Shown here: piece after piece, positions 6,976-52,910 of the stretch
Numbering within the stretch: the first letter of the stretch is position 1
Layout: each line of letters begins with the position of its first letter
Source of the DNA: Candidatus Gastranaerophilales bacterium
GTDB taxonomy: Bacteria > Cyanobacteriota > Vampirovibrionia > Gastranaerophilales > Gastranaerophilaceae
Direction: 5' to 3'
Assembly (NCBI GenBank): GCA_944326425.1
Contig: CALVDX010000001.1
Coordinates: 124,001 to 188,000 of the forward strand
Length of the DNA: 64,000 nucleotides
Made by a program: the position numbers and the translations under genes
The notes under the pieces: generated by a model
Told to the model about the DNA's origin: nothing
Seen by the model: only the letters and a program-made list of their open reading frames with translations
Database searches by the model: none

Positions 6976-8853
6976 CTATTCAACTGTTTCATCGTTTTCT
7001 GTAATAGTATTATCATCAATTTCTTCATCAGTATCATTTGCTTCTTGAATTAATTCACCTTTATCAAAATTTTGCTTATAGACAAAATCCTGATAATAAT
7101 CTTCTAATTCCGGTGTGTCAACTTCAAATACATACGCTTTAGCTGGAGCAAGTATTGCTCTTATTTCATTTTCAGCTGTTTGGATTTCGCTTTCTTCACC
7201 ATACGACGGTGCTTCATTCTTAAGAATTTGTCCTTCTTTAATTCCTGGAACAAATACTTTTACTGAAATTGGACGGTTAACATTCTTATTTGCAATAACA
7301 ACCAGTGTTTTACCATTCAATGTCCTTGCGTAAGGTATGACCCAGTCGCCTTTATCACCTTCTTTATAAAGTTCAACAAAGCTGCCTTTGGTTATTATAT
7401 CATTATATTTTTGACGCATTTCGTTGGTTTCTTTCATAACCCTGCCGATATCGTGGCATTTCCCTTCAGCAGGTGCTGAAAAGTTAAATAAATCAAGTTT
7501 GTTATGGTGAACTTTATTTATATAACTATCTGTCTGGGTTTCGATATCTTCCTTGCCGGCATACGGATAATCATAGTAATCACCATATTGGAAACCGTCT
7601 ACATAATAGGGGTTTGTCATCGGAATTGTAGATTGAATTATCGTTGATAAATCACTGAAAATTTCACCGCCCCTTACCATTGCAGACATATCATCGTGGG
7701 TTGTAAAAGATCCTATTAAGGATTTTCCTGCAAGTTCTTTTATTCCATCACCTTCATAGTCGCGGTTTGTTAAATCTAAGTTCATGGTTACATAATCAAT
7801 GAACTCTCCTGCTTTCATTTCATGAAACATGTGGTACTGTCCGTAATAACAGTCAAAACCGGCTCTTAACGAGTCAATAGGTCTGTCATGCATCATATTT
7901 AACTGCGGAGACGCACATTCATAAGTATAGGTTTCTGCAAGCCATGCAAACTCAGGGTCTTTTTCATGAGAGTAGTTTATTAAAATATCCCAGAATTCTG
8001 TTGGCTTAGCACGTGCAACGTCTGCTCTGATACCGTCAATACCGAGCTCTATGCAACTATCGACAAATTGTTTATGCATTTCTAAGAGCTTTGGATTTAA
8101 TTGCCGTTTGGTTTCATCTGCCCATGGATCAAACATTCTTATGTCTACCCAGCCTTGTGGACATTTATCTTCTCCATGTCTGCCGCGGGCCATCAGTGCC
8201 TGTTCATTATTACTCATATCCAGTGATGCGCAGCTTGGAAGATCAAGCATTACACGGATTCCGCGTTCATGACAGGCATCAATAAAGGCTTTAAACTGTT
8301 CTTTAGGACTTCTCGGGTCTGAAAAATCTACAAGGACAGGATCAATAGCAAGATCACCATTGTCTTCAACAAATTTTAAAGGCGCATAAACAGAGCCGGC
8401 TGTTCCCATTGCATGATTTTTCCCCGGCGGATGGATAGGCAGTACATGAAGAGTATTTATTCCAAGGTTTTGAAAATCGTCGAGCTTTTCTATGCAGCTC
8501 AGGAATGTTCCCGGTTTTTCACCAAGCTTGGGATTAATCCTTCTGTCACCGTTTAAATCTTTTGCACCAAGCATTCTCGGAATAATCGCCATAATGATTG
8601 CATCATTATCTTGTATCATTGAACGAAGGTTATTATGATAATCAACCGGCGTAGTTTTTTTATCATCAACCGGAGTTATCTTTTTTATTCCGGCAGCATT
8701 AACAGCAGCCTGACTGTCCAGATATTTGCCAAACGGATTTGTTATTTTATTGTTTTTTTCTCCGTCATTAGCCTGTACATCTGTTCTTTGTGCTGACTTG
8801 AAATTTGTTTGATATTGCGGGATTTTTACATTGTAATAAGAATTAATTTGCAT
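6976..8853 (-). CDS. GH13-like (alpha-amylase family) glycosidase without signal peptide
   Basis: The 625-residue protein has an (alpha/beta)8 GH13-type core. IDGIRADVARAKP holds the nucleophile Asp at about residue 280, AWLAETY the acid/base Glu at about 306, and FTTHDD the transition-state Asp at about 387. An EF-loop-like stretch DLNGDRRINPKLGE precedes the barrel. ATG 8853 follows GGGGAGG; an upstream in-frame ATG at 8880 has no such site. There is no Sec signal; the N-terminus instead has the motif YQTNFKSAQ. It is the last gene of a three-gene operon and overlaps the preceding stop by 11 nt. The C-terminal tail is acidic. The substrate cannot be told. A close paralogue with a signal peptide is at 24791-26335. 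Confidence 0.85.
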   Translation of the reverse strand: MQINSYYNVKIPQYQTNFKSAQRTDVQANDGEKNNKITNPFGKYLDSQAAVNAAGIKKITPVDDKKTTPVDYHNNLRSMIQDNDAIIMAIIPRMLGAKDLNGDRRINPKLGEKPGTFLSCIEKLDDFQNLGINTLHVLPIHPPGKNHAMGTAGSVYAPLKFVEDNGDLAIDPVLVDFSDPRSPKEQFKAFIDACHERGIRVMLDLPSCASLDMSNNEQALMARGRHGEDKCPQGWVDIRMFDPWADETKRQLNPKLLEMHKQFVDSCIELGIDGIRADVARAKPTEFWDILINYSHEKDPEFAWLAETYTYECASPQLNMMHDRPIDSLRAGFDCYYGQYHMFHEMKAGEFIDYVTMNLDLTNRDYEGDGIKELAGKSLIGSFTTHDDMSAMVRGGEIFSDLSTIIQSTIPMTNPYYVDGFQYGDYYDYPYAGKEDIETQTDSYINKVHHNKLDLFNFSAPAEGKCHDIGRVMKETNEMRQKYNDIITKGSFVELYKEGDKGDWVIPYARTLNGKTLVVIANKNVNRPISVKVFVPGIKEGQILKNEAPSYGEESEIQTAENEIRAILAPAKAYVFEVDTPELEDYYQDFVYKQNFDKGELIQEANDTDEEIDDNTITENDETVE

Positions 8854-24790: not shown

Positions 24791-26335
24791 TTATTCTATT
24801 GATAAATCGTTAATTAAATATACCTGAATATCTCCAGGCGGGATTTCAAGTATAAATTTGTCTTTCTTCTGAACAAGCGTGCAATGACCGGATGAGCCTT
24901 TTATAACCATAGGCTTGTGTTTATTATTCATTTTTGGTACTGTAATTTTAACTTTTTGCTTAGCATTTTTAAAATCCAGATTGCCTATTGTTACAATTGT
25001 TTTGTCACCGTATGAGCGTGCATAAGCAAACACTGATTCATCAGACACTGATAACGGTGTAAAGCTGCCTTTTGAAAATATTTGGGAGAAAGTTTTCTTG
25101 TACTTGTTTGCAATAATAAAATTGTTATTGATATCCTGATTTTGTCCTTGTGGTCTTGCTGAGAAGTTAAATAAGTCAAATTTACCCCTGTGGACAAAAT
25201 AATAATCGTCATCTGTGTATGATTTATCGGCTTTTTTATTCCCCCAGAAATATATATACTGTGCACCGGTTTGGAAACCGTCTACGTAATAGGAGTTTAC
25301 GGGGAGTGTTGTGTTGAGCCATATAATCATTTCCGAAAGTCTTTGCCCGTTTATTAGTACAGGACTAAGTTCATCGTGAGTTGTAAAACTTCCTATAACT
25401 GATTTAGGTGTATCATATTTAGCAAACAGTTTTTTGTTGAAATTAACGTGGTTGATAAGCTGTGAACCTTTAGTCCAGTCTTTGATATTAAAGTAACTGC
25501 CGTAGTAACCGTCAAATCCTGCGTCTAAAAGTTTGTCATAGGGCGTAAATACAGCGTATTCAGATGGCGGTTCCCTCCAGGAGTCAGAAGCTTCTGCCAG
25601 AAATAAAAAATTCGGGTCTTTGCTTCTTGCATAAGAGATTAAGTTTTTCCAGAAAGTATAGGGTTTAAGAGTTGCAACATCTGCTCTTATTCCGTCAAAA
25701 CCCAGCCCCATAACCATATCAATGTATTGTATATGTAAATCATAAAGGGCTTGATTGAGACTTCCATCTACACCGGTATCAAACAGACGTACGTCTGTCC
25801 AATCTGTTGGAACAATCGGCATCTGGTTTTTGTCTTTTTTGAATAAATCGGATTGTTCCAGGTACATATCATAAGAACCGCAGCTTGGCAGGTCTACGAT
25901 AACCCTTATGCCTCTTTTGTGGCATTCATCAACAAATTTGCGGGCCTGATCCTTTATGTCTACTCCGGAATGAATATCTCCAAGATACGGATTTAGTTCT
26001 GTAAGTGATGCAGGAGAATAAACAGAGCCTGCTGTCCCCAGAGCTTTTAATTTACCGGTCGGGTTAATGGGCATAACATGCAGAGTATTTACCCCTTCTT
26101 CTTTTAATTCGTCCAAACGTTCTATTGCATTAAGGAATGTCCCTTTTTCTTCGTTTTCATCAATAAGCCCGTTTTTATCTGTGTCTTTCGCATTAAATGT
26201 TCGTAGGTTAACGGCCATTATTATGGCTTTATTGTTTAGAAATAAATTTCTAAGGTCATTAATATAGGCCTCGGCATTTGCTGTTTGGCCTATACAGGCT
26301 ATAAGAAATGACATAATGAATATTTTTTTTAACAC
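24791..26335 (-). CDS. Secreted GH13-like (alpha-amylase family) glycosidase
   Basis: The 514-residue protein has a Sec signal peptide (MLKKIFIMSFLIACIGQTANA). Its GH13-type barrel parallels the protein at 6976-8853: GFDGIRADVATLKP (nucleophile Asp about 218), FLAEASDSW (Glu about 248) and FTTHDELSP (Asp about 319). DTDKNGLIDENEEKG is a good EF-hand-like loop just before the barrel, so calcium may stabilise it. The start is GTG 26335 with AAGGAG upstream. It is followed by trpS on the same strand. The substrate is unknown; an alpha-glucan is the first guess for GH13. Confidence 0.88.
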   Translation of the reverse strand: MLKKIFIMSFLIACIGQTANAEAYINDLRNLFLNNKAIIMAVNLRTFNAKDTDKNGLIDENEEKGTFLNAIERLDELKEEGVNTLHVMPINPTGKLKALGTAGSVYSPASLTELNPYLGDIHSGVDIKDQARKFVDECHKRGIRVIVDLPSCGSYDMYLEQSDLFKKDKNQMPIVPTDWTDVRLFDTGVDGSLNQALYDLHIQYIDMVMGLGFDGIRADVATLKPYTFWKNLISYARSKDPNFLFLAEASDSWREPPSEYAVFTPYDKLLDAGFDGYYGSYFNIKDWTKGSQLINHVNFNKKLFAKYDTPKSVIGSFTTHDELSPVLINGQRLSEMIIWLNTTLPVNSYYVDGFQTGAQYIYFWGNKKADKSYTDDDYYFVHRGKFDLFNFSARPQGQNQDINNNFIIANKYKKTFSQIFSKGSFTPLSVSDESVFAYARSYGDKTIVTIGNLDFKNAKQKVKITVPKMNNKHKPMVIKGSSGHCTLVQKKDKFILEIPPGDIQVYLINDLSIE

Positions 26336-44337: not shown

Positions 44338-44502
44338 ATGGAAAAAGATTTAAAAAAGTTTGAGTATAGAGTGATAGAAAATAAAGATCGTATAGAGCAG
44401 GAAAATAAGATACGAACATCACGGCATCAGACCAACCCTATGTTGGAGAAGTTTTTAGAGTTCAGGCATGCAAAGAAAATGATGCCTAAAGATTTAGTTT
44501 AG
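44338..44502 (+). CDS. Small charged protein (54 aa)
   Basis: The protein is MEKDLKKFEYRVIENKDRIE, then a basic stretch and LEFRHAKKMMPKDLV. It is highly charged and helical, with no recognisable domain. GAGG lies 8 nt before the ATG. It is 1 nt from the next gene, so the two are a small operon with prmC. Confidence 0.55.
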   Translation: MEKDLKKFEYRVIENKDRIEQENKIRTSRHQTNPMLEKFLEFRHAKKMMPKDLV

Positions 44503-44503
44503 T

Positions 44504-45022
44504 ATGTATGAAATAAAAAACAGAATTTACGGAAAATTAAACAGAGTTCAGAAGACGGGGCTCTGTAATTTTCTGCGAGCACTTGTAAAACAGAACATGG
44601 ATTTGTCGGTTGACGAGATATACGATAAATTTATAGAGGATGAGAGGTACTACGAGGAGCTTAATGTTTCAAAATTTGAGTTTCTGGCAGATATAATCAA
44701 TGATGAACAGTTTTCTTATGATACAAAACTTTATTTAAGAGAATGTAAAAAGTATTATGAGTACAAAAAAGCGCAGGCGCCGGTTATTGCTGCAAATAAG
44801 GAATTTGAAAAAAAGAAACGGAAATTTTTGCAGGAAGTAAAGATGTCAAAGGAGAAACCGACAAAAAAACAGCTTTACTATTACGAAAAACTCTGTAAGC
44901 GGTATAATGTAGAGGGTATTGATACAGAGACAGCGAGCAGGTTAGATTTAAGGAACGAAATAGAGAGAATATTGGATGAACATTCAGGAGATTATAAAAA
45001 TATTAACGGATGCAGGGATTGA
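44504..45022 (+). CDS. Hypothetical protein upstream of prmC
   Basis: The 172-residue protein is basic and helical (KNRIYGKLNRVQKTGLCNFLR at the start, KKKRKFLQEVKMSKEKPTKK in the middle). I recognise no family. It overlaps prmC by 47 nt and follows the 54-residue gene by 1 nt, so it is co-translated with prmC. A role in translation is possible from its context but unproven. Confidence 0.6.
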   Translation: MYEIKNRIYGKLNRVQKTGLCNFLRALVKQNMDLSVDEIYDKFIEDERYYEELNVSKFEFLADIINDEQFSYDTKLYLRECKKYYEYKKAQAPVIAANKEFEKKKRKFLQEVKMSKEKPTKKQLYYYEKLCKRYNVEGIDTETASRLDLRNEIERILDEHSGDYKNINGCRD

Positions 45023-45809
45023 GCCTAATGAGGCAGAAGCGGAAGTTAAATTAATGATAAGAGATATTTGTAAATGGAGCCCTGTGGATATCTTACTGGA
45101 ACGTCCTCTGGATACATCAAGGCTTGATGCGGTCGCAGAATTTGCAAGGCGGCGTGCACAAACAAGACGTCCAATTCAGCAAATACTTGGTTTTACTCAT
45201 TTTTATGGTAATAAGTACCGTGTTACAGAAGATGTACTTATTCCGCGGGACGAAACTGAATTACTGGTTCAGAAGGCCTTAAGGATTATTTTTGCAAATA
45301 ATTTTAAAACCGTTCTTGATATAGGTACAGGAAGCGGATGTATTGCGTGCTCCATTGCCCTTAATTCTGATACTTATGTTCTTGGGGTGGATATTTCATC
45401 AGATGCCTTAAGAATTGCTCTTGAGAATGCCTCTGCACTAAATCTTAATAACAAGGCTGTGTTTAGGAAATCGGATGTATACAGTAAAATTAATCCTAAC
45501 GAAACATTTGATATGATTGTTTCAAATCCGCCGTATATTCCTGAAGGAACACCGGTTCAGAAAGAAGTCGAATTTGACCCTAAACTTGCACTGTTTACTA
45601 AAGACAGAGAGGGGTTGGAGTTTTATAAGAGAATTGCGGAAGGGGCAAGAGGAATATTGAAAGAGGGCGGTTATTTGCTTTTTGAGTGCGGTGAGGGACA
45701 GGCGCAAAAGATAAAGCGTGTACTGGCACAGAACGGATTTGGCAATATAGAGATAGATAAGGATCTGGCAGGAATTGAGCGGATTGTATCCGCACAATTG
45801 TTGGGGTGA
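44976..45809 (+). CDS. prmC: Peptide chain release factor N5-glutamine methyltransferase
   Basis: PrmC methylates the Gln of the GGQ motif of RF1 and RF2. The 277-residue protein has the SAM motif LDIGTGSGCIACSIAL and the catalytic SNPPYIPEG, with FYGNKYRVTEDVLIPRDETE before it. GAGAGAAT precedes the ATG inside the upstream gene. The gene ends just before the copy 1 repeat. Confidence 0.94.
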   Translation: MNIQEIIKILTDAGIEPNEAEAEVKLMIRDICKWSPVDILLERPLDTSRLDAVAEFARRRAQTRRPIQQILGFTHFYGNKYRVTEDVLIPRDETELLVQKALRIIFANNFKTVLDIGTGSGCIACSIALNSDTYVLGVDISSDALRIALENASALNLNNKAVFRKSDVYSKINPNETFDMIVSNPPYIPEGTPVQKEVEFDPKLALFTKDREGLEFYKRIAEGARGILKEGGYLLFECGEGQAQKIKRVLAQNGFGNIEIDKDLAGIERIVSAQLLG

Positions 45810-45815
45810 TTGCAC

Positions 45816-46097
45816 ATTTTATCGGGGGCTATGCACCCCCGTGCCCCGCACCAAGTTTCTTTCTTGTCTTGAATTGCTCGCGTTAAACGGCATTACGGGC
45901 AAAAACTCATGTTTTGCCCTCCAGCCTCTGCTCGCAATCCGCTTTTGTATTGCGATGAAAAAAGAAAGAAACTTGGACAAAGAAAGCAGAAGTCCTGCAC
46001 TTCATTTACCCCTCTCTAAACTCAACCCGAGGCAAAATAACTCGCTGCGCTCAAACAAATTTTGCCCTGTCATTGTTTCGTTAAGAGACTGTAGAAA
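45816..46097 (+). repeat. Multi-stem intergenic repeat, copy 1 (with inserted block)
   Basis: About 282 nt that match copy 2 at 51422-51620 over most of its length. Stems: CGGGGG/CCCCCG (45823-45841); CCAAGTTTCTTTC pairing with GAAAGAAACTTGG; GGCAAAAT pairing with ATTTTGCC. The second stem's loop carries an extra block of about 80 nt, absent from copy 2, that has its own hairpin (GGGCAAAA/TTTTGCCC). It fills the tail-to-tail gap between prmC and the GH13-like gene. It contains no convincing gene. Confidence 0.8.
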
Positions 46098-46146
46098 GTG
46101 TAACAGTTAAATATCAAAATAAATATGTGGCATTATAATTATGGTA

Positions 46147-46178
46147 AAAAGCCCCGCTTTTAAAGCGGGGCTTTTTTT
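46147..46178. terminator. Bidirectional terminator
   Basis: AAAAGCCCCGCTTT (46147-46160) and AAAGCGGGGCTTTTTTT (46162-46178) form a 14-bp stem with a T run on both strands, ending the GH13-like gene and any transcript through the repeat. Confidence 0.9.
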
Positions 46179-46184
46179 ATATCC

Positions 46185-48464
46185 CTAGACCTGTTCTACC
46201 GTGTAGAATTTGAATTCTGCCGGCATGATTTTGCTGAACATCAACTGGTCTGTCGGGGTTTGGAATTTTTCTTCAACGTAGTTATCCCCGTCAAAGTTGT
46301 ATTGACCGGTTATTTTGTAATCGCAGGAGAGTGAAATATTTTTATCAAAAACTTCTCTGCCTTCTCTTACTTCTATATGCTGTTCGCTCCCTTCCCATAC
46401 CCAGAATTTTTCTGACGGGTTATGGTAGTTTGCTGCAACAAGGATTGAAGTTTTTAGCCCTTCTTTTGAGATTTGCCATACAACAAATCCATCCTCATCC
46501 TGACGTATTATGTGGGCTTCTCCGCCTGAGATAATCGGAGAGTTTTTAACAAAACGGTCGATTGCATCAAATTTTGCATAGAATTCGTAATCCTTTTCCC
46601 GCGGCATAGAAATTTCTGCACCTATAACACTTTCAATTCCTTTGGTGGTAAAGGATTCATCGCCGTCAATGTACATAACGGGGCGCTGCGCAAATTTGCC
46701 GCCCGGTAAAAATTTGTATTTGAACCACTTAAATAATGCCCCCTGTTCGCCTAACTGTCCCGGGTATCTGTCTATTGCAGAAAACTCTCCGTCCTGATTG
46801 TTGTAAGTTTTTAAAATTGATAAACAGTTTTTTGCATTGCTTGAAGTGTTGTAATTTGTTAATTCAAGATTATCATTTGCAATCCTTTCAGGAGTTTTAT
46901 CACTCTGTGCAACAATATCGCTGCCCCAGAGAAGGTCGAAATTCATATCTTCGTGGTATTCTTTAAGGTAATTATCCCAGAGCATATATTCTGCAAGTGT
47001 TCCAAAGTATGGAATTTTGTTTTTAAGTGCTGTGTTTAATTTGCCGAGAACTTTTCTTGGGGCCCTGTAACTAATCGGGACGCCGTCTTTTTCTGACACC
47101 TCATCAACAATATGGTCTATGTGGTCAACTCTGAACCCGTCGAAGTTAAAATCTGCCTGCAAGTCTTTCATGTAATTGATAAAGAAATCTATTACATTGT
47201 TGTTGTATTCGCCGGTTTCAAGATTAACAAAGTAGTAAGGTGTCTGGCAATCAAGGTTTGCATATTGCGTAACATCTTCACCTTTGTAGTTGTAGTGCTT
47301 AAAAGTAGGGTATGAGCCGCAGTCGCTCATTCTGTTGAATACGGGAACGCCCGCAGAACACCATGCACCGCCGGGGGACGGCCACATTCCCGCTTCAATA
47401 AGTTTTTGTATAACATCACCCTGATTGGTAATATCAGACTCTTTAAGCTTCTTAGAATTATTGTTGATTACAGAAGAAATTATATTTCTTGCTTTTCGGT
47501 GAAGTTTTACCTGAATATCTTTTTCAAGCATAGCGTTTGAAAGGTATTTTTTCTTTTCAACAAGCGCCTCATCAATATCGTTGTAAATGGCTTTGTAATT
47601 TTCAGCCAAATCGCCGATTCCCGAACGCAGTGACTTTTTATATAAGTCTTTAACTATGTTGATATCATCCTGTGAATATTTTTCTTTTAATGTTTTACAA
47701 ACCTCATCGACATTTTTTTCTATTTCAGAAATAAGTGCATTAATATCAAACCATCTTGCACATTCAGGATTTGCAAGAACGATTTTTGAATACCTTGCGG
47801 TTTGCGGCAGTATGTCATAAATTACAGGGTGTCCGGCAAGCTGTGCCATTTCAATAAACAGTTTAACCTGTCCGTCAGCGTTAAAACCTGTTTTTTCTGT
47901 AATATTTTTATCTTCTAAATTCGGGCTTACGCTTGATGACATCGGAAGGTATGCGCATCCGAATTCTCTCGGGTGGAACGGTATAAGGTAAATCGTTGTT
48001 GAAAAAATGTTATTTTCAAGATTTCCGGTCGGTAAGATGGCAAGCTGTTTGAGCCAGTCTGCAAGTTTGCCTGTATCGGATTTTTCATTCCCGTTGCCCA
48101 GTCCTGCGAGATTGATAAGTTTTATATTGTGTCCTTCTTTTTTTATCCAGTCGGAGTTTTGGATGTTATTTCTTGCAAGAACGGACGGATTATCAAAATG
48201 AAACTCGCTGTTTCCGTTATAAACGCCGTTTTGTCTCCATTTGTATTCAAGACAGTATAGTGCTTCCGCGTCACTGATTTCTTCCAGCGCGCGTATATGC
48301 GGGTACGGAAGATATCCGTTTGTTTCCAGTAACGAATTCAAATAATTTTTCCGCTCATCAGATATTGAGTTGTAGGAGTAAATTTCTTTTAACTTATTTA
48401 CAAACTCTGTTAATTGGGCGGACTTGTCCACTTTTGTTTCCTTTTTGAATAAAAAATTCAGCAT
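46185..48464 (-). CDS. GH13-like (alpha-amylase superfamily) glycosidase, third paralogue type
   Basis: The 759-residue cytoplasmic protein has FDGFRVDHIDHIVDE (nucleophile Asp about 445) and FGTLAEYMLWDN (Glu about 490), a GH13-type arrangement, and a C-terminal beta domain. An N-terminal alpha-helical part and a long insert (SEIEKNVDEVCKTLKEKYS) make it unlike the other two. No signal peptide. AAGGAG precedes the ATG. It resembles sucrose- or maltose-phosphorylase-type or unclassified GH13 proteins; substrate unknown. Confidence 0.75.
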   Translation of the reverse strand: MLNFLFKKETKVDKSAQLTEFVNKLKEIYSYNSISDERKNYLNSLLETNGYLPYPHIRALEEISDAEALYCLEYKWRQNGVYNGNSEFHFDNPSVLARNNIQNSDWIKKEGHNIKLINLAGLGNGNEKSDTGKLADWLKQLAILPTGNLENNIFSTTIYLIPFHPREFGCAYLPMSSSVSPNLEDKNITEKTGFNADGQVKLFIEMAQLAGHPVIYDILPQTARYSKIVLANPECARWFDINALISEIEKNVDEVCKTLKEKYSQDDINIVKDLYKKSLRSGIGDLAENYKAIYNDIDEALVEKKKYLSNAMLEKDIQVKLHRKARNIISSVINNNSKKLKESDITNQGDVIQKLIEAGMWPSPGGAWCSAGVPVFNRMSDCGSYPTFKHYNYKGEDVTQYANLDCQTPYYFVNLETGEYNNNVIDFFINYMKDLQADFNFDGFRVDHIDHIVDEVSEKDGVPISYRAPRKVLGKLNTALKNKIPYFGTLAEYMLWDNYLKEYHEDMNFDLLWGSDIVAQSDKTPERIANDNLELTNYNTSSNAKNCLSILKTYNNQDGEFSAIDRYPGQLGEQGALFKWFKYKFLPGGKFAQRPVMYIDGDESFTTKGIESVIGAEISMPREKDYEFYAKFDAIDRFVKNSPIISGGEAHIIRQDEDGFVVWQISKEGLKTSILVAANYHNPSEKFWVWEGSEQHIEVREGREVFDKNISLSCDYKITGQYNFDGDNYVEEKFQTPTDQLMFSKIMPAEFKFYTVEQV

Positions 48465-48684
48465 TTGTGACAGCTCCTTAATATATCTTATTTATATGAT
48501 AGTTGTAATTTGATACTAGCATGGCAGAAAATATTTTACAAGAAAATTATCGGATTAAGATTGTAGGATAATATCCTGTAAAAACTTATTATTACTAATA
48601 TTTATACAGATTAAAGATGTAAAAAAGATTAAATAATTGTTAAGTTTTGTAACAATTATTTCTTCTTATGAAATTAGAAAAAAA

Positions 48685-48702
48685 TTATATACTTTATATA
48701 TA
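48685..48702 (+). promoter_or_regulatory. Shared promoter element TTATATACTTTATATATA
   Basis: Identical 18 nt to 44306-44323, 29 nt before the ATG of the coiled-coil protein gene. Confidence 0.45.
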
Positions 48703-48731
48703 TAAGATGTAAGATATATGAGGATAAAGCT

Positions 48732-49790
48732 ATGATGAATCCATTGATGTTATTAATGAGCGGATGTTTCGGCGGCTTCGGCGGCGGATATGGCTATGGG
48801 ATGTCCGCTAATACAATGGGCACAATGATGGATATCTGGGGTATCGCCGGAATGCAAACTGCAATGCAATGCGGTATGCCGGGTGCTTTAGGCGGAATGT
48901 ATTCAGCCGGATATGCGCCGGCTGCAGGCGGCAGAACTTATCAAACGGCGCCGTCACAGGATAATTCTCCGGCAGCGTTGAAACAGCAGATGGATGCTGC
49001 TTACGATGAATATGAAAAATACATAAATCTTTGTTCTAAAATAGCAGAATATGAAGCTGATACGACAACTAAGGCTGAAGATTTGACAAAAGCTGTTTCT
49101 GATGCAGAAATAAATGTTTTGAACAAGGATAAAGACTTAGGCAGATTGTTATCAGAATTAAAAACTTTACAAGACAATCCATTGTTGGATGTTAAGAAAA
49201 AGTCTAAGTTAACACCTGCTCAACAATTGGAACTTAATAACTTGAATAAGGCAATTCAGGATAAGCAAGCTGAAATCCAAAACACAGAGGCGGATAAACT
49301 AGAAGCACAGAAAAAACTTGAAGAAGCAAAACAAAATCTTGATGCATTTAATATAGCAAAATCTGAAGATAAAAAATTACGTGATGAGATTTTTGCTAAA
49401 AAAGAGCAAGTCTATAAACTTTACACTGAATTATCCGCAGCGTATGCTTCTGCATTAGCAAGAGAACGCTCAGAAGAGGCTGTAGTTCATGACAGAGCAG
49501 CTGATTCAAGAGAAGCAGGCAAATGGTGGGATAGAACGGTATTAAATCCAACCAACTGGTTTAATAAAAAAGGCGCCTTCTGGGGGCAAACAACAGATAA
49601 TGCAGATATTGCAAAATGTTTGAGAAAACTGAAAAAAAGCGGCAGGAGTGAGGCACTGGCTTATGCCGTACAAGAGAGCTTAATAACAGTTACTAACGGG
49701 GTAGCATCTACTACACATAGTGAACTTCAAGGCCTTGTAGATTTATACAACGGCAAAGACCCTGTAGCAGCTGATCCGTTAAATTCATAG
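48732..49790 (+). CDS. Gly-rich and coiled-coil protein of unknown function
   Basis: The 352-residue protein starts with a hydrophobic Gly/Met-rich stretch (MMNPLMLLMSGCFGGFGGGY). It then has a long coiled coil of charged heptads (KLTPAQQLELNNLNKAIQDK; KLEEAKQNLDAFNI) between about residues 85 and 265. The last part is soluble with WWDRTVLNPTNWFNKKG. It is not recognised. It has its own promoter element and a strong terminator. Confidence 0.6.
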   Translation: MMNPLMLLMSGCFGGFGGGYGYGMSANTMGTMMDIWGIAGMQTAMQCGMPGALGGMYSAGYAPAAGGRTYQTAPSQDNSPAALKQQMDAAYDEYEKYINLCSKIAEYEADTTTKAEDLTKAVSDAEINVLNKDKDLGRLLSELKTLQDNPLLDVKKKSKLTPAQQLELNNLNKAIQDKQAEIQNTEADKLEAQKKLEEAKQNLDAFNIAKSEDKKLRDEIFAKKEQVYKLYTELSAAYASALARERSEEAVVHDRAADSREAGKWWDRTVLNPTNWFNKKGAFWGQTTDNADIAKCLRKLKKSGRSEALAYAVQESLITVTNGVASTTHSELQGLVDLYNGKDPVAADPLNS

Positions 49791-49800
49791 CAGAGAGATA

Positions 49801-49832
49801 AAAGACCGGTTAAAAAATGACCGGTCTTTTTA
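49801..49832 (+). terminator. Terminator of the coiled-coil gene
   Basis: AAAGACCGGT, loop TAAAAAATG, ACCGGTCTTT (49801-49829), then TT. Confidence 0.9.
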
Positions 49833-49836
49833 TTTA

Positions 49837-49865
49837 TCGACAAACGTGTGTGTTTATCCTAAAAT
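49837..49865 (+). promoter_or_regulatory. Promoter giving a leaderless mRNA for the MATE gene
   Basis: TCGACA (49837-49842), 17 nt, TAAAAT (49860-49865), then 6 nt to the ATG; no Shine-Dalgarno. Confidence 0.6.
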
Positions 49866-49871
49866 TCTCTT

Positions 49872-51188
49872 ATGAGATTTACACGCTATATGAAAGAGAT
49901 AGCTGAAATATCCGCTCCGATTATTATGGGTAATCTGGGGTTTATTTTTATCGGTGTCGGCGATGTTATTGTTGCGGGCAGGCATTCTACCCAGACACTT
50001 GCGGCGGTTAGTATTGCTACAGCCATACTTAATTGTATTATGATGATTGGTATAGGTATACTTTCTGCGGTTGCACCGATTGTTTCTAATATGCGCGGGG
50101 AGGGAAAACAGCCTGAAAAGTATTTTTATCCTACGGTCAAGTTTGCACTTATAATGGGTCTTTTTATTTCACTGTGTATTTTTGCAGTTGTACCTGTGAT
50201 TGACCTTTTGGGATATGAGCCGGAACTTGCGGAACTTATAAAAACATATTCTATAATTACTGCGTTTTCGACATTCGGGGTGCTGCTGCACAGTTCTATA
50301 AAGGATTTTTTGCAGTCGTTTGAAATAGTCCTGTTCCCAAATATTCTTACCGTACTTGCAGTATTTCTAAATCTCGGGTTAAATATAATCTTTGTATTCG
50401 GGTACTTCGGACTTCCGGAAATGGGTGCTGCAGGGCTTGCAATTGCAAGTTTGATTACCAGATATATTATGGGGTTTGGATTGTATTTTTATGCACTGTA
50501 CAGGCTAAACATATCAATGTACAGTGACCACTCTTATTATAAAAATCTTCTTATAGTTGGAACCCCGATAGCGTTTGCGATACTTATAGAGTTTGTTGCA
50601 TTTAATCTGGTTACTATTATTATGGGCAGGGTTTCCGGCCTGTATGCTGCTGCACAGAATATTATAACTACTTTTACTACTGTTTCATTTATGGTTCCGC
50701 TTGCTATTGCTAACGGCTTATCCGTAAAAGTCGGGTATTCCAACGGGGCAAAAAATTACCTTGATGTAAGACGTTATGCCGTATCAGGTATTATAATGTC
50801 AGAAATTTTTATGTTTTGCAGTGCTTTAACTGTTGCGTCATTTCCGCATTTCTGGATAGGGTTGTTTACTCCTGATAAAGAACTTATTGCGGTAACTGTT
50901 CCGATAGTGTATGTGCTTGCCGGGTTTCAGCTTTTTGACGGTTTACAAGTTACACTTGCCGGGATTTTTAAGGGGCTTAAAGATACCAATATTGTAATGA
51001 TTGCTAATCTTGTGAGCTACTGGGGTGTGTCAATACCTGTAGGAACTCTTCTTGCTTTTCATTTTAATATGAATATTATGGGCTACTGGTACTCTATCGG
51101 GATGGCAGCAATTCTTTTGTGTGTAATTATGATTGCGAAACTTATCTTTAAATACCGCGAATGGCAAAAACTGGCACCTTCAAAGTAA
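49872..51188 (+). CDS. MATE-family efflux transporter
   Basis: The 438-residue protein has about 12 membrane segments in two halves, starting EIAEISAPIIMGNLGFIFIG and with FLNLGLNIIFVFGYFG in the middle. MATE proteins expel drugs or toxic metabolites with Na+ or H+. The natural substrate is unknown. It is a single gene followed by the 507-nt repeat region. Confidence 0.9.
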   Translation: MRFTRYMKEIAEISAPIIMGNLGFIFIGVGDVIVAGRHSTQTLAAVSIATAILNCIMMIGIGILSAVAPIVSNMRGEGKQPEKYFYPTVKFALIMGLFISLCIFAVVPVIDLLGYEPELAELIKTYSIITAFSTFGVLLHSSIKDFLQSFEIVLFPNILTVLAVFLNLGLNIIFVFGYFGLPEMGAAGLAIASLITRYIMGFGLYFYALYRLNISMYSDHSYYKNLLIVGTPIAFAILIEFVAFNLVTIIMGRVSGLYAAAQNIITTFTTVSFMVPLAIANGLSVKVGYSNGAKNYLDVRRYAVSGIIMSEIFMFCSALTVASFPHFWIGLFTPDKELIAVTVPIVYVLAGFQLFDGLQVTLAGIFKGLKDTNIVMIANLVSYWGVSIPVGTLLAFHFNMNIMGYWYSIGMAAILLCVIMIAKLIFKYREWQKLAPSK

Positions 51189-51276
51189 ATTGCCGGTTAA
51201 AACAGTAGTTTGTTTAGTAAAATCAACCTGCTACACAGGGGATTTATTTGCATTTTACACTAAAAAAGGTTAAAAT

Positions 51277-51302
51277 TGTCACCCTGAACTTGTTTCAGGG
51301 TC
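51277..51302 (+). repeat. Hairpin ACCCTGAA/TTCAGGGT in the left flank of repeat copy 2
   Basis: ACCCTGAA-CTTGT-TTCAGGGT (51281-51301) is preceded by TGTC. TCTTAC-TACCG-GTAAGA follows at 51301-51317. Such CCTGAACTTGTTTCAGG units recur in many bacterial genomes as dispersed palindromes. Confidence 0.6.
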
Positions 51303-51331
51303 TTACTACCGGTAAGATTCCGAAACAAGTT

Positions 51332-51663
51332 CCACTGCTGTTCCGAATAATTTTACATTAATTATTCATATAACAATATATTACTGAAATAATAGTACAT
51401 CAGGAAAATATTAAGACAATAATTTTATCGGGGGCTATGCACCCCCGTACCCCGCACCAAATTTCTTTCTTTTTGTTGCGATGCAAAAAGAAAGAAAATT
51501 GGACAAAGAAAGAAAAAACACGCTCCCCAATACAGTCTCTAAACTCAACTCGAGGCAAAATAACTCGCTGCGCTCAGACAAATTTTGCCCTGTCATTGTT
51601 TCGTTAAGAGACTGTAGAAAAAGACAGAAAAATAAATATCAAATTTATCTTGGACAGCAGTGG
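51332..51663. repeat. Inverted-repeat pair enclosing repeat copy 2
   Basis: CCACTGCTGTTCC (51332-51344) and GGACAGCAGTGG (51652-51663) are inverted, differing by one T. The right arm is followed by AAACAAGTTCGGAATGACA, the inverse of the CCGAACTTGTTTC-type sequence on the left. Copy 2 of the multi-stem repeat lies between the arms. Confidence 0.55.
51422..51620 (+). repeat. Multi-stem intergenic repeat, copy 2 (compact form)
   Basis: About 199 nt. Stems: CGGGGG/CCCCCG (51429-51447); CCAAATTTCTTTC pairing with GAAAGAAAATTGG around TTGCGATG; ACAGTCTC pairing with GAGACTGT, enclosing GGCAAAAT/ATTTTGCC. It lies tail-to-tail between the MATE gene and the gene ending at 51696. The whole gene-free gap 51189-51695 holds this element and its flanks and no gene I can support. 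Confidence 0.8.
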
Positions 51664-51695
51664 AAACAAGTTCGGAATGACATTATATCTGTCCC

Positions 51696-52829
51696 CTACA
51701 CAGCCGCTGCAGCTTTTGCCTGTTTTGCCTTCCGTTGTTTTCTTCTCATAAGGTCAACAAAAGCTTCGAGTCTTGTAATGTATCCGGCACGCCCTGTTTG
51801 TTCATCCATAATAAGCGTAAGAATAGGAACTTCACAGTCCTTACGCATTGCAGGGAATATGTTTTGCGACATAATTTCCGGCATGCAGGTAAACGGACTT
51901 ATATGGATAATCCCGTCTTTGTGCTGTTCATTAGCATAAGCGACATCAGATACACATTCAAGCGCATCGCCGCCTATATCTCTCATTAAGTATGGCTTAG
52001 CAAGCCGTTCTGCTCTTTGCAGGTGGGTTTCCCCTTTTCTAAAAGCTTTAGGTATAATTGCATCCTTTAAAAAGCTGCTTACCGTAAGGCTGCGTCTTGT
52101 TTGAACGCCCATTCTGCCAAGTTCGCGTTCAATATTCTGATTAGAAAAATCATCGTTTACAAGGTAAATTTCACCCGTAATATCAACATTTAAAACTTCG
52201 CGTTTAGGGTCAATCGGTGTCTTTTCTATTTCTGCAAGTGCTTTATGGTAAGCTTTTTTTAATTCATGGGTGCTGTTAACTTTGTCAATAAGTTTTAGCG
52301 CTTTTTTGTAATTCTTTTCAGCTGTACCCGGCGTGATTTCTCTTGCGCGGTAATAAGAAAGCGCAGAGTCTAAATCATCAACCACAAAAACTTTTCTTAT
52401 ACCTATGTTAATAGCACGCATAAACAAAATCGGGTCATTTTTTTGTGTAAGTTCTTTTAAGAAGTTATAAAGTCCTTTTATTCCGTCATAGAGTGAAAGC
52501 TCAATATAATTTGCACTGTACCCCATATCCTGTAATGTTTTGTGGATATTCTGCCCGTATTCTCCCAGTCTGCAAATCCCCGGAGATGTAATCATAGCAA
52601 CATAATCGGCACCGCCTTCTATTGCTTCAATGAAGTTTCCTAAAATCAGTTTGTACGGCAGGCAAATGGCCTCAGGTGAATTTTTTGTGCCAAGGGACAG
52701 CGTTTTTTTGTTTGTATAGGGCGGAATGTATGGTTCTACTCCTACTTTTCTGAGCGCAGCTGCCCAGGCTATTGATATTGACCCCATGTGCGGGAATGCT
52801 ACTTTAATTTTCTTTTCTTTTTCTTTCAT
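51696..52829 (-). CDS. Acyl-CoA dehydratase/activase-related protein (DUF2229/HgdB-like)
   Basis: The 377-residue protein resembles the family of 2-hydroxyacyl-CoA dehydratase-type and activase-related proteins: VAFPHMGSISIAW at the start, SPEAICLPYKLILGNF, VAMITSPGICRLGEYG, and HISPFTCMPEIMSQNI. Several Cys (ICLPY, GICRL, TCMPE) could bind an Fe-S cluster. The substrate is unknown. It is the third gene of the sigma-gcvPB unit, 81 nt after gcvPB. The start is ATG 52829 with AGGA upstream. Confidence 0.75.
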   Translation of the reverse strand: MKEKEKKIKVAFPHMGSISIAWAAALRKVGVEPYIPPYTNKKTLSLGTKNSPEAICLPYKLILGNFIEAIEGGADYVAMITSPGICRLGEYGQNIHKTLQDMGYSANYIELSLYDGIKGLYNFLKELTQKNDPILFMRAINIGIRKVFVVDDLDSALSYYRAREITPGTAEKNYKKALKLIDKVNSTHELKKAYHKALAEIEKTPIDPKREVLNVDITGEIYLVNDDFSNQNIERELGRMGVQTRRSLTVSSFLKDAIIPKAFRKGETHLQRAERLAKPYLMRDIGGDALECVSDVAYANEQHKDGIIHISPFTCMPEIMSQNIFPAMRKDCEVPILTLIMDEQTGRAGYITRLEAFVDLMRRKQRKAKQAKAAAAV

Positions 52830-52910
52830 TGGTTTGTTTCCTGTTCTAACGTTTTGTGTTTTATGTGGTGTTAGTTAAATTTATCCGGAGTCCCTTATTT
52901 TACGAGCTAT

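Follow-up and report, generated by a model that had tools for sequence, protein, structure and literature searches.

A probably mobile intergenic repeat of nested palindromes in Candidatus Gastranaerophilales, with a conserved mini-hairpin loop and loop-seated insertions

The 64,000-nucleotide stretch of the Candidatus Gastranaerophilales genome analysed here (the window) contains two copies of a multi-stem intergenic repeat, each located in a gap between genes that face each other tail to tail. The source genome is a 2.0-Mb assembly of 40 contigs that is 99.99% complete. The close match of the two copies at both ends and in the middle, as described in the original prediction, was borne out: the two copies, at 45816-46097 (copy 1) and 51422-51620 (copy 2), are 96% identical over the 50 nt of the left end, 88% over 48 nt in the middle and 98% over the 85 nt of the right end. 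The additional block noted in the loop of the second stem of copy 1 is also real, and measures 77 nt (45866-45942). The two copies and their parts are as follows.

45816..46097, plus strand: copy 1, a short form with the extra block
45823..45842, plus strand: copy 1, hairpin of stem 1, CGGGGGCTATGCACCCCCGT; pairing in helix 1 holds in 98.2% of cells
45851..45865, plus strand: left (pyrimidine) arm of stem 2 of copy 1, CCAAGTTTCTTTCTT
45866..45942, minus strand: extra block of copy 1, 77 nt, inverted, of the minus-strand type GCGGATTG..GTTTAACGCGAG..CAAGAC
45962..45976, plus strand: right (purine) arm of stem 2 of copy 1, AAGAAAGAAACTTGG
45978..45986, plus strand: third purine segment of copy 1, CAAAGAAAG, which mirrors the right arm and is shorter than that of copy 2
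46031..46066, plus strand: inner hairpin of stem 3 of copy 1, GGCAAAAT..ATTTTGCC
46039..46057, minus strand: conserved loop of copy 1, TGTTTGA-GCGCAGC-GAGTT, containing the GNA mini-hairpin
51282..51300, plus strand: palindrome CCCTGAACTTGTTTCAGGG, of a family that hosts copy 2 here and the block elsewhere in the genus
51322..51332, plus strand: left 11-bp target-site duplication of copy 2, GAAACAAGTTC
51333..51662, plus strand: long form of copy 2, 330 bp, with TIR CACTGCTGTTCC / GGACAGCAGTG
51422..51620, plus strand: core of copy 2, stems 1-3, without the block
51663..51673, plus strand: right 11-bp target-site duplication of copy 2, GAAACAAGTTC

Copy 2 folds 6.2 standard deviations below its shuffles (z -6.2) and copy 1 folds 2.4 below (z -2.4), with 5 of 200 shuffles equally good in the latter case. 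One open reading frame, of 111 aa (45775-46110), overlaps copy 1, and another (51481-51939) overlaps part of copy 2; a coding reading of these frames seems unlikely, as the block and the arms are free to vary. Copy 2 sits inside the CCGAAACAAGTTCGG hairpin of a repeat (51276-51332) that consists of the hairpins CCCTGAACTTGTTTCAGGG and CCGAAACAAGTTCGG, and its 11-bp duplication corresponds to the centre of the CCGAAACAAGTTCGG hairpin. A GC-rich hairpin, AAAAGCCCCGCTTTTAAAGCGGGGCTTTTTTT (46146-46178), separates copy 1 from the gene that converges on it and is absent from the terminator scan list; this terminator appears to be older than the insertion of copy 1, since congeners without the element have similar hairpins at the same place. 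Elsewhere in the window, a 35-nt direct repeat with 86% identity (7581-7615 and 25264-25298) probably lies inside related genes.

The comparison with the complete genome that had been proposed as a check identified further copies, which bring the total to 16 near-full ones, in addition to fragments and two elements from sister subfamilies. All or part of the element was matched in 25 of the 59 genomes sampled (its own genome counted), and the exact loop of stem 3 was found in 35 of 386 sampled genomes of the phylum, where all counted matches belong to the element's own family. The many copies, together with the covariation described below, rule out a chance duplicate. In one congener, two identical copies 423 bp apart form a tandem duplication (L070 307-922; G002 C16).

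Mobility had been suggested from the two copies, and is supported by the dispersed copies, by empty orthologous sites, by the behaviour of the block as a separate module, and by TIRs and 11-bp target-site duplications (TSDs) on long forms. For the empty sites, window positions 44500-52900 were aligned with six congeners, in which the flanking genes are in place without the element. At the copy 1 locus, the gap between the flanking genes is no more than a few tens of bases long in four congeners (G004, G005, G002 and G003), and G006 carries a different relative there, inverted. This comparison is at the level of presence or absence, as the sister species are too divergent for base-exact junctions of copy 1. 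At the copy 2 locus the element is missing from G004, G002, G003 and G006. Since sister species lack the element at both window loci, it must have moved. The gap of copy 1 has been hit twice: the G006 relative (L233; G006 C106:350-950) belongs to another subfamily, lies in the opposite orientation and carries a GGTACGAAGTACC mini-hairpin.

Several copies, including copy 2, have a long form of about 330 bp with the ends CACTGCTGTCC..GGACAGCAGTG. In four copies TSDs occur at matching distances from the core (left 82-93 nt, right 41-46 nt), namely GAAACAAGTTC in copy 2, and GAACTTGTTTC, TTATAAATATTTA and GCCGGAGTGCT; the flanking repeats are 11 to 13 nt in four long copies and imperfect in others. 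A common string of at least 10 nt on both sides of the element was found in 10 of 37 genus copies (permuted fraction: mean 0.081, maximum 0.222), several of which have the repeat at other distances, where it may be due to chance or to other repeats. The long forms, copy 2 among them, thus combine TIRs with a TSD of fixed length, as MITEs do. Copy 1 itself is not classed as a MITE, because it has neither a TIR shell nor a TSD, the longest string common to both its flanks being 7 nt. No transposon-sized pair of facing CACTGCTGTCC ends (at most one mismatch) and no autonomous partner were found in the TIR search. Mobilisation by reverse transcription or by a Y1 transposase was rejected, as reverse transcriptase families and the Y1 family PF01797 (controls positive in 5/14) are both absent from the element's own genome; the absence of PF01797 and the presence of TSDs on long forms also set the element apart from REP/REPIN and IS200/IS605-type units. 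A second element of about 207 bp in the same genome has near-identical ends, CACTGCTGTCCGGTAAAA..TTTTACCGGACAGTAGTG, and is without the stem 1-3 core (L299 1-501; own C12:11350-11850), and one end of this type also occurs on contig C28 (L303).

On its own strand, the extra block is one member of a module of about 77 nt with the layout GCG[arm]..GAGGG..[hairpin]..GACCCGTTTAACG[arm']..CAAGA. A search of the genus loci, whose pattern mostly leaves out the type present in copy 1, identified 30 distinct instances, and the palindromes that host them are of at least four kinds. By our reading, 13 are seated in the stem 3 loop, three in the stem 2 loop, seven in a CCCTGAA..TTCAGGG palindrome, two in a GATGTA..AAAGTTTT context, four in other hairpins and one elsewhere. 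Blocks occur in both orientations, and in one congener a block lies within another (L058). The spread of the instances over varied hosts and the block within a block indicate an independent repeat that is found in loops. A longer pattern, taken from the 3' part of the block, has 15 occurrences in the own genome.

Covariation of the helices, proposed as a check of selection for structure, was analysed in 23 genus copies without the block, over 41 pairs in five helices and with 500 shuffles, and was clearly present. Two-sided changes were counted in 87 cells, compared to 31.3 expected (sd 3.9), and the covariation score was 0.246 versus 0.100 in shuffles; none of the 500 shuffles reached either value. 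Pairing holds in 94.0% of the cells, and 15 of the 41 pairs show two-sided change, with fewer pair types than in shuffles (24 versus 27.9). Whole arm blocks (GGCAAAAT, GCCTCGTT, GACACATT and GCCGTGT, with their complements) have been swapped as units, so that the covariation events are fewer than the cells. The compensating substitution originally cited as an example was mistaken: in copy 2, CCAAATTTC/GAAAATTGG places A opposite A, unpaired in the fold, and this pair (39-78) is unpaired in nine of the 23 copies.

The loop of stem 3, AACTCGCTNCGCTCARACA on the plus strand, reads TGTYTGA-GCGNAGC-GAGTT on the minus strand. Its central GCGNAGC corresponds to a DNA mini-hairpin of exceptional stability, in which a GNA triloop closes a 2-bp stem; this combination is stable in DNA and not notably in RNA. 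Loop variants retain GNA while the small stem varies (ACGAAGT, ACGCAGT, GGTACGAAGTACC), and the pattern is broken in four GCAAAGC variants and a few others. A scan of 84,980 species identified at least 118 stretches with this loop, 80 of them with record titles, from which we assigned phyla. Among the matches listed, 125 instances are fully flanked, and in 90 of these an inner stem of at least 6 bp is present (permuted: mean 2.33 instances, maximum 7); the adjacent 7-mers comprise 97 different sequences. Such stems were found, again among the matches listed, in Pseudomonadota (35/38), Bacteroidota (13/17), Bacillota (8/16), Desulfobacterota (4/5), Fusobacteriota (1/1), Nitrospirota (1/1) and Patescibacteriota (1/2), in 25 of 39 instances without a title and two of four without a phylum, and in neither the single Gastranaerophilales record nor the single Nitrospinota record. 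The GNA mini-hairpin loop recurs within unrelated stems in at least seven phyla.

In stem 2 the right arm is purine (AAAAAGAAAGAAA in copy 2), and a short linker separates it from its mirror image (AAAGAAAGAAAAA in copy 2). As set out in PMC4666352, the PIT criteria of Hoyne et al. describe a pyrimidine arm, a purine arm and a mirrored purine strand on one strand, with a stem of more than 7 triplets and loops of 0-10 nt. By eye, copy 2 has this layout (TTTCTTTCTTTTT / AAAAAGAAAGAAA / AAAGAAAGAAAAA, loops of 10 and 7 nt); copy 1 falls outside it, with a third segment of 9 nt and a first loop that is 96 nt long because of the extra block. The third segment tracks arm changes as a mirror. In other genera of the same order, 31 of 39 informative hairpins were mirror, none direct and eight tied, a set that was found by stem 2 similarity and counts some hairpins twice. 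Across phyla, in hairpins retrieved through the stem 3 loop alone, the 29 informative ones comprised 19 mirror, four direct and six ties (shuffled partners: mean 8.44, maximum 15). Four control hairpins were found elsewhere in the loci, none of them informative, and the Bacteroidota copies have direct or neutral third segments, not mirror ones. Among the matches listed, the purine-motif count was 39/112 upstream of the cross-phylum loop versus 13/112 downstream, and a crude inverted-repeat score did not separate the two sides (42/112 and 41/112). Two adjoining stem-2-like hairpins with third purine segments and no stem 1 were observed in one congener (L086 170-700; G011 C15). According to the same source, a purine-motif triplex is impossible in RNA, pyrimidine-motif intrastrand triplexes do occur in RNA, and a stable triplex in vivo was unsupported in E. 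coli (PMC4666352). The complementary strand of the element has the pyrimidine order, which is open to RNA.

Taken as a whole, the element is probably a non-autonomous mobile intergenic repeat of nested palindromes, whose fold as single-stranded DNA is conserved and whose loops are invaded by a separate block. From the sequence patterns we infer that the conserved feature would be the folded DNA single strand, i.e. a class II triplex hairpin plus a GNA mini-hairpin, and that single-stranded DNA may be the working form, with a preference for loops as target rule and an enzyme acting in trans. The long form inserted with a staggered 11-bp duplication, as seen in four copies including copy 2. As to the steps, replication would expose a strand, which then folds; and a putative enzyme, encoded elsewhere or in other cells, would recognise and move the unit. 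Hairpin loops would be favoured targets, leading to nesting, and template switching across the arms would keep these near-perfect, leaving two-sided Watson-Crick changes with few G-T intermediates.

The original prediction had also considered a small structured RNA. This alternative holds that a structured non-coding RNA is made from the minus strand, with a GCGNAGC loop, mismatches that lean towards G-U, and stem 2 as a pyrimidine-motif U-A-U triplex, a motif for which RNA has precedents in the text available (PMC4666352). The mismatches do lean this way: in minus-strand cross-phylum stems G-T exceeds A-C by 25 to 13 with 3-bp flanks and by 8 to 3 with 4-bp flanks, and on the plus strand G-T is the rarer type both across phyla (12 versus 34, gapped stems) and in the genus copies (9 versus 15). 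The ungapped count is preferred, because the gapped one mixes in internal-loop positions; both lean alike, on small numbers. However, G-T makes up only 9 of 884 paired cells (1.0%) in the genus copies, against 27 of 287 (9.4%) in 13 tRNAs from the same loci, a low share that would be unusual for an RNA with a long evolutionary history and agrees with palindromes in DNA. Rfam 15 matched one tRNA only in the 64-kb window, and scores in 12 related loci were far below the gathering thresholds; at permissive E-values nearly all Rfam hits were eukaryotic microRNA hairpins, which were taken as chance. Neither promoters nor terminators at the element were clearly above shuffled expectation, no fixed orientation or gene association was seen, the plus strand has the purine-motif triplex layout, and the GNA triloop on its 2-bp stem is a stable form of DNA rather than notably of RNA. 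We consider the RNA unlikely, and read the element as structured DNA instead.

The tail-to-tail position of both window copies would suit a cis-acting terminator or mRNA-end element of convergent gaps, but this position, correct for the two copies, does not hold as a general rule. Only five of the 19 elements and fragments in the own genome are convergent; nine are tandem (five on the same strand, four on the opposite), three are divergent and two unclassified. Among the matches listed, 136 cross-phylum loops were considered; 44 of them lay at contig edges and 20 within a long ORF and were set aside, which left 72 that could be classified, namely 19 convergent, 41 tandem and 12 divergent cases. 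As no hairpin of the element exceeds expectation as an intrinsic terminator either, we give this explanation hardly any credence. Mutational debris is another candidate: template switching would make and perfect the palindromes, and the cross-phylum likeness would be convergence or horizontally transferred junk. Template switching at quasipalindromes is indeed described as making them more perfect in the text available (PMC7202029), and the two-sided changes with few intermediates agree with it; the palindromes may be kept either in this way or by selection on the folded strand, the two not being separable here. Yet the empty sites, and 11-bp TSDs whose distances from the core agree between copies, show that a defined unit was inserted, and arm correction cannot yield a conserved loop amid 97 different adjacent 7-mers, which makes debris as the full explanation very doubtful. 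A mobile, folded DNA element is the more probable reading.

Several known repeats resemble the element in part. ERIC/IRU are palindromic intergenic repeats with internal insertions, as here, and the small dispersed repeats of Nostoc, also in Cyanobacteriota, share nested hairpins and compensatory changes; compared by anatomy only, both differ from the element in size, sequence, triplex arm, conserved loop and cross-phylum spread. The succession of pyrimidine arm, purine arm and 3' purine reverse-Hoogsteen strand corresponds to the PIT / class II, BoxC / TM-ECO motifs, which are likewise intergenic, multi-copy and variable between strains and occur in H. influenzae (PMC4666352, as far as its available text goes); a Haemophilus record in the present set (L161) has the mirror layout. 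In contrast to the G/C-rich TM-ECO motifs, for which that text reports no link to mobility genes (PMC4666352), the element is A-rich, belongs to a larger multi-stem mobile unit, and adds a conserved second loop, TIR/TSD forms and inserted blocks. With the MITEs Nezha (PMC3049150) and RUP (PMC2229807), as described in the excerpts available, it shares small size, lack of coding capacity, strong base pairing and, in the long form, TIR and TSD; it differs in the short forms such as copy 1 that are without TIR and TSD, in its large conserved internal structure, and in that the Y1, reverse transcriptase and facing-TIR searches found no matching transposase. The BOX repeats of Streptococcus, which are expressed according to the same excerpt (PMC3049150), are also modular with optional internal blocks, in a comparison of anatomy only, but their modules are in tandem, whereas the block here is seated in the loops of hairpins, occurs either way round and can be nested. 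BLAST against plasmids and phages gave no match, and literature searches by name, sequence string and related terms, with subscription journals mostly outside their coverage, found no recognised description.

More tentatively, it is possible that the stem-AACTCGCTNCGCTCARACA-stem hairpin and the triplex hairpin upstream of it represent a superfamily, spread across bacteria, of modules structured as single-stranded DNA that are mobile or have been transferred repeatedly. What unites them would be a single conserved DNA-binding factor, encoded by the host or by an element, that would read the GNA mini-hairpin. With only the fold being read, the arms could then change freely, and modules would invade one another's loops. 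Intrastrand triplexes and structured intergenic repeats have been catalogued in bacteria for decades, with a mechanism missing. The present element combines a triplex hairpin and a conserved mini-hairpin loop with modules that invade loops, and one of its forms carries TIR and 11-bp duplications. It offers a practical starting point for understanding the spread of such repeats, and if one factor does read the loop in at least seven phyla, that factor could be fished for directly.
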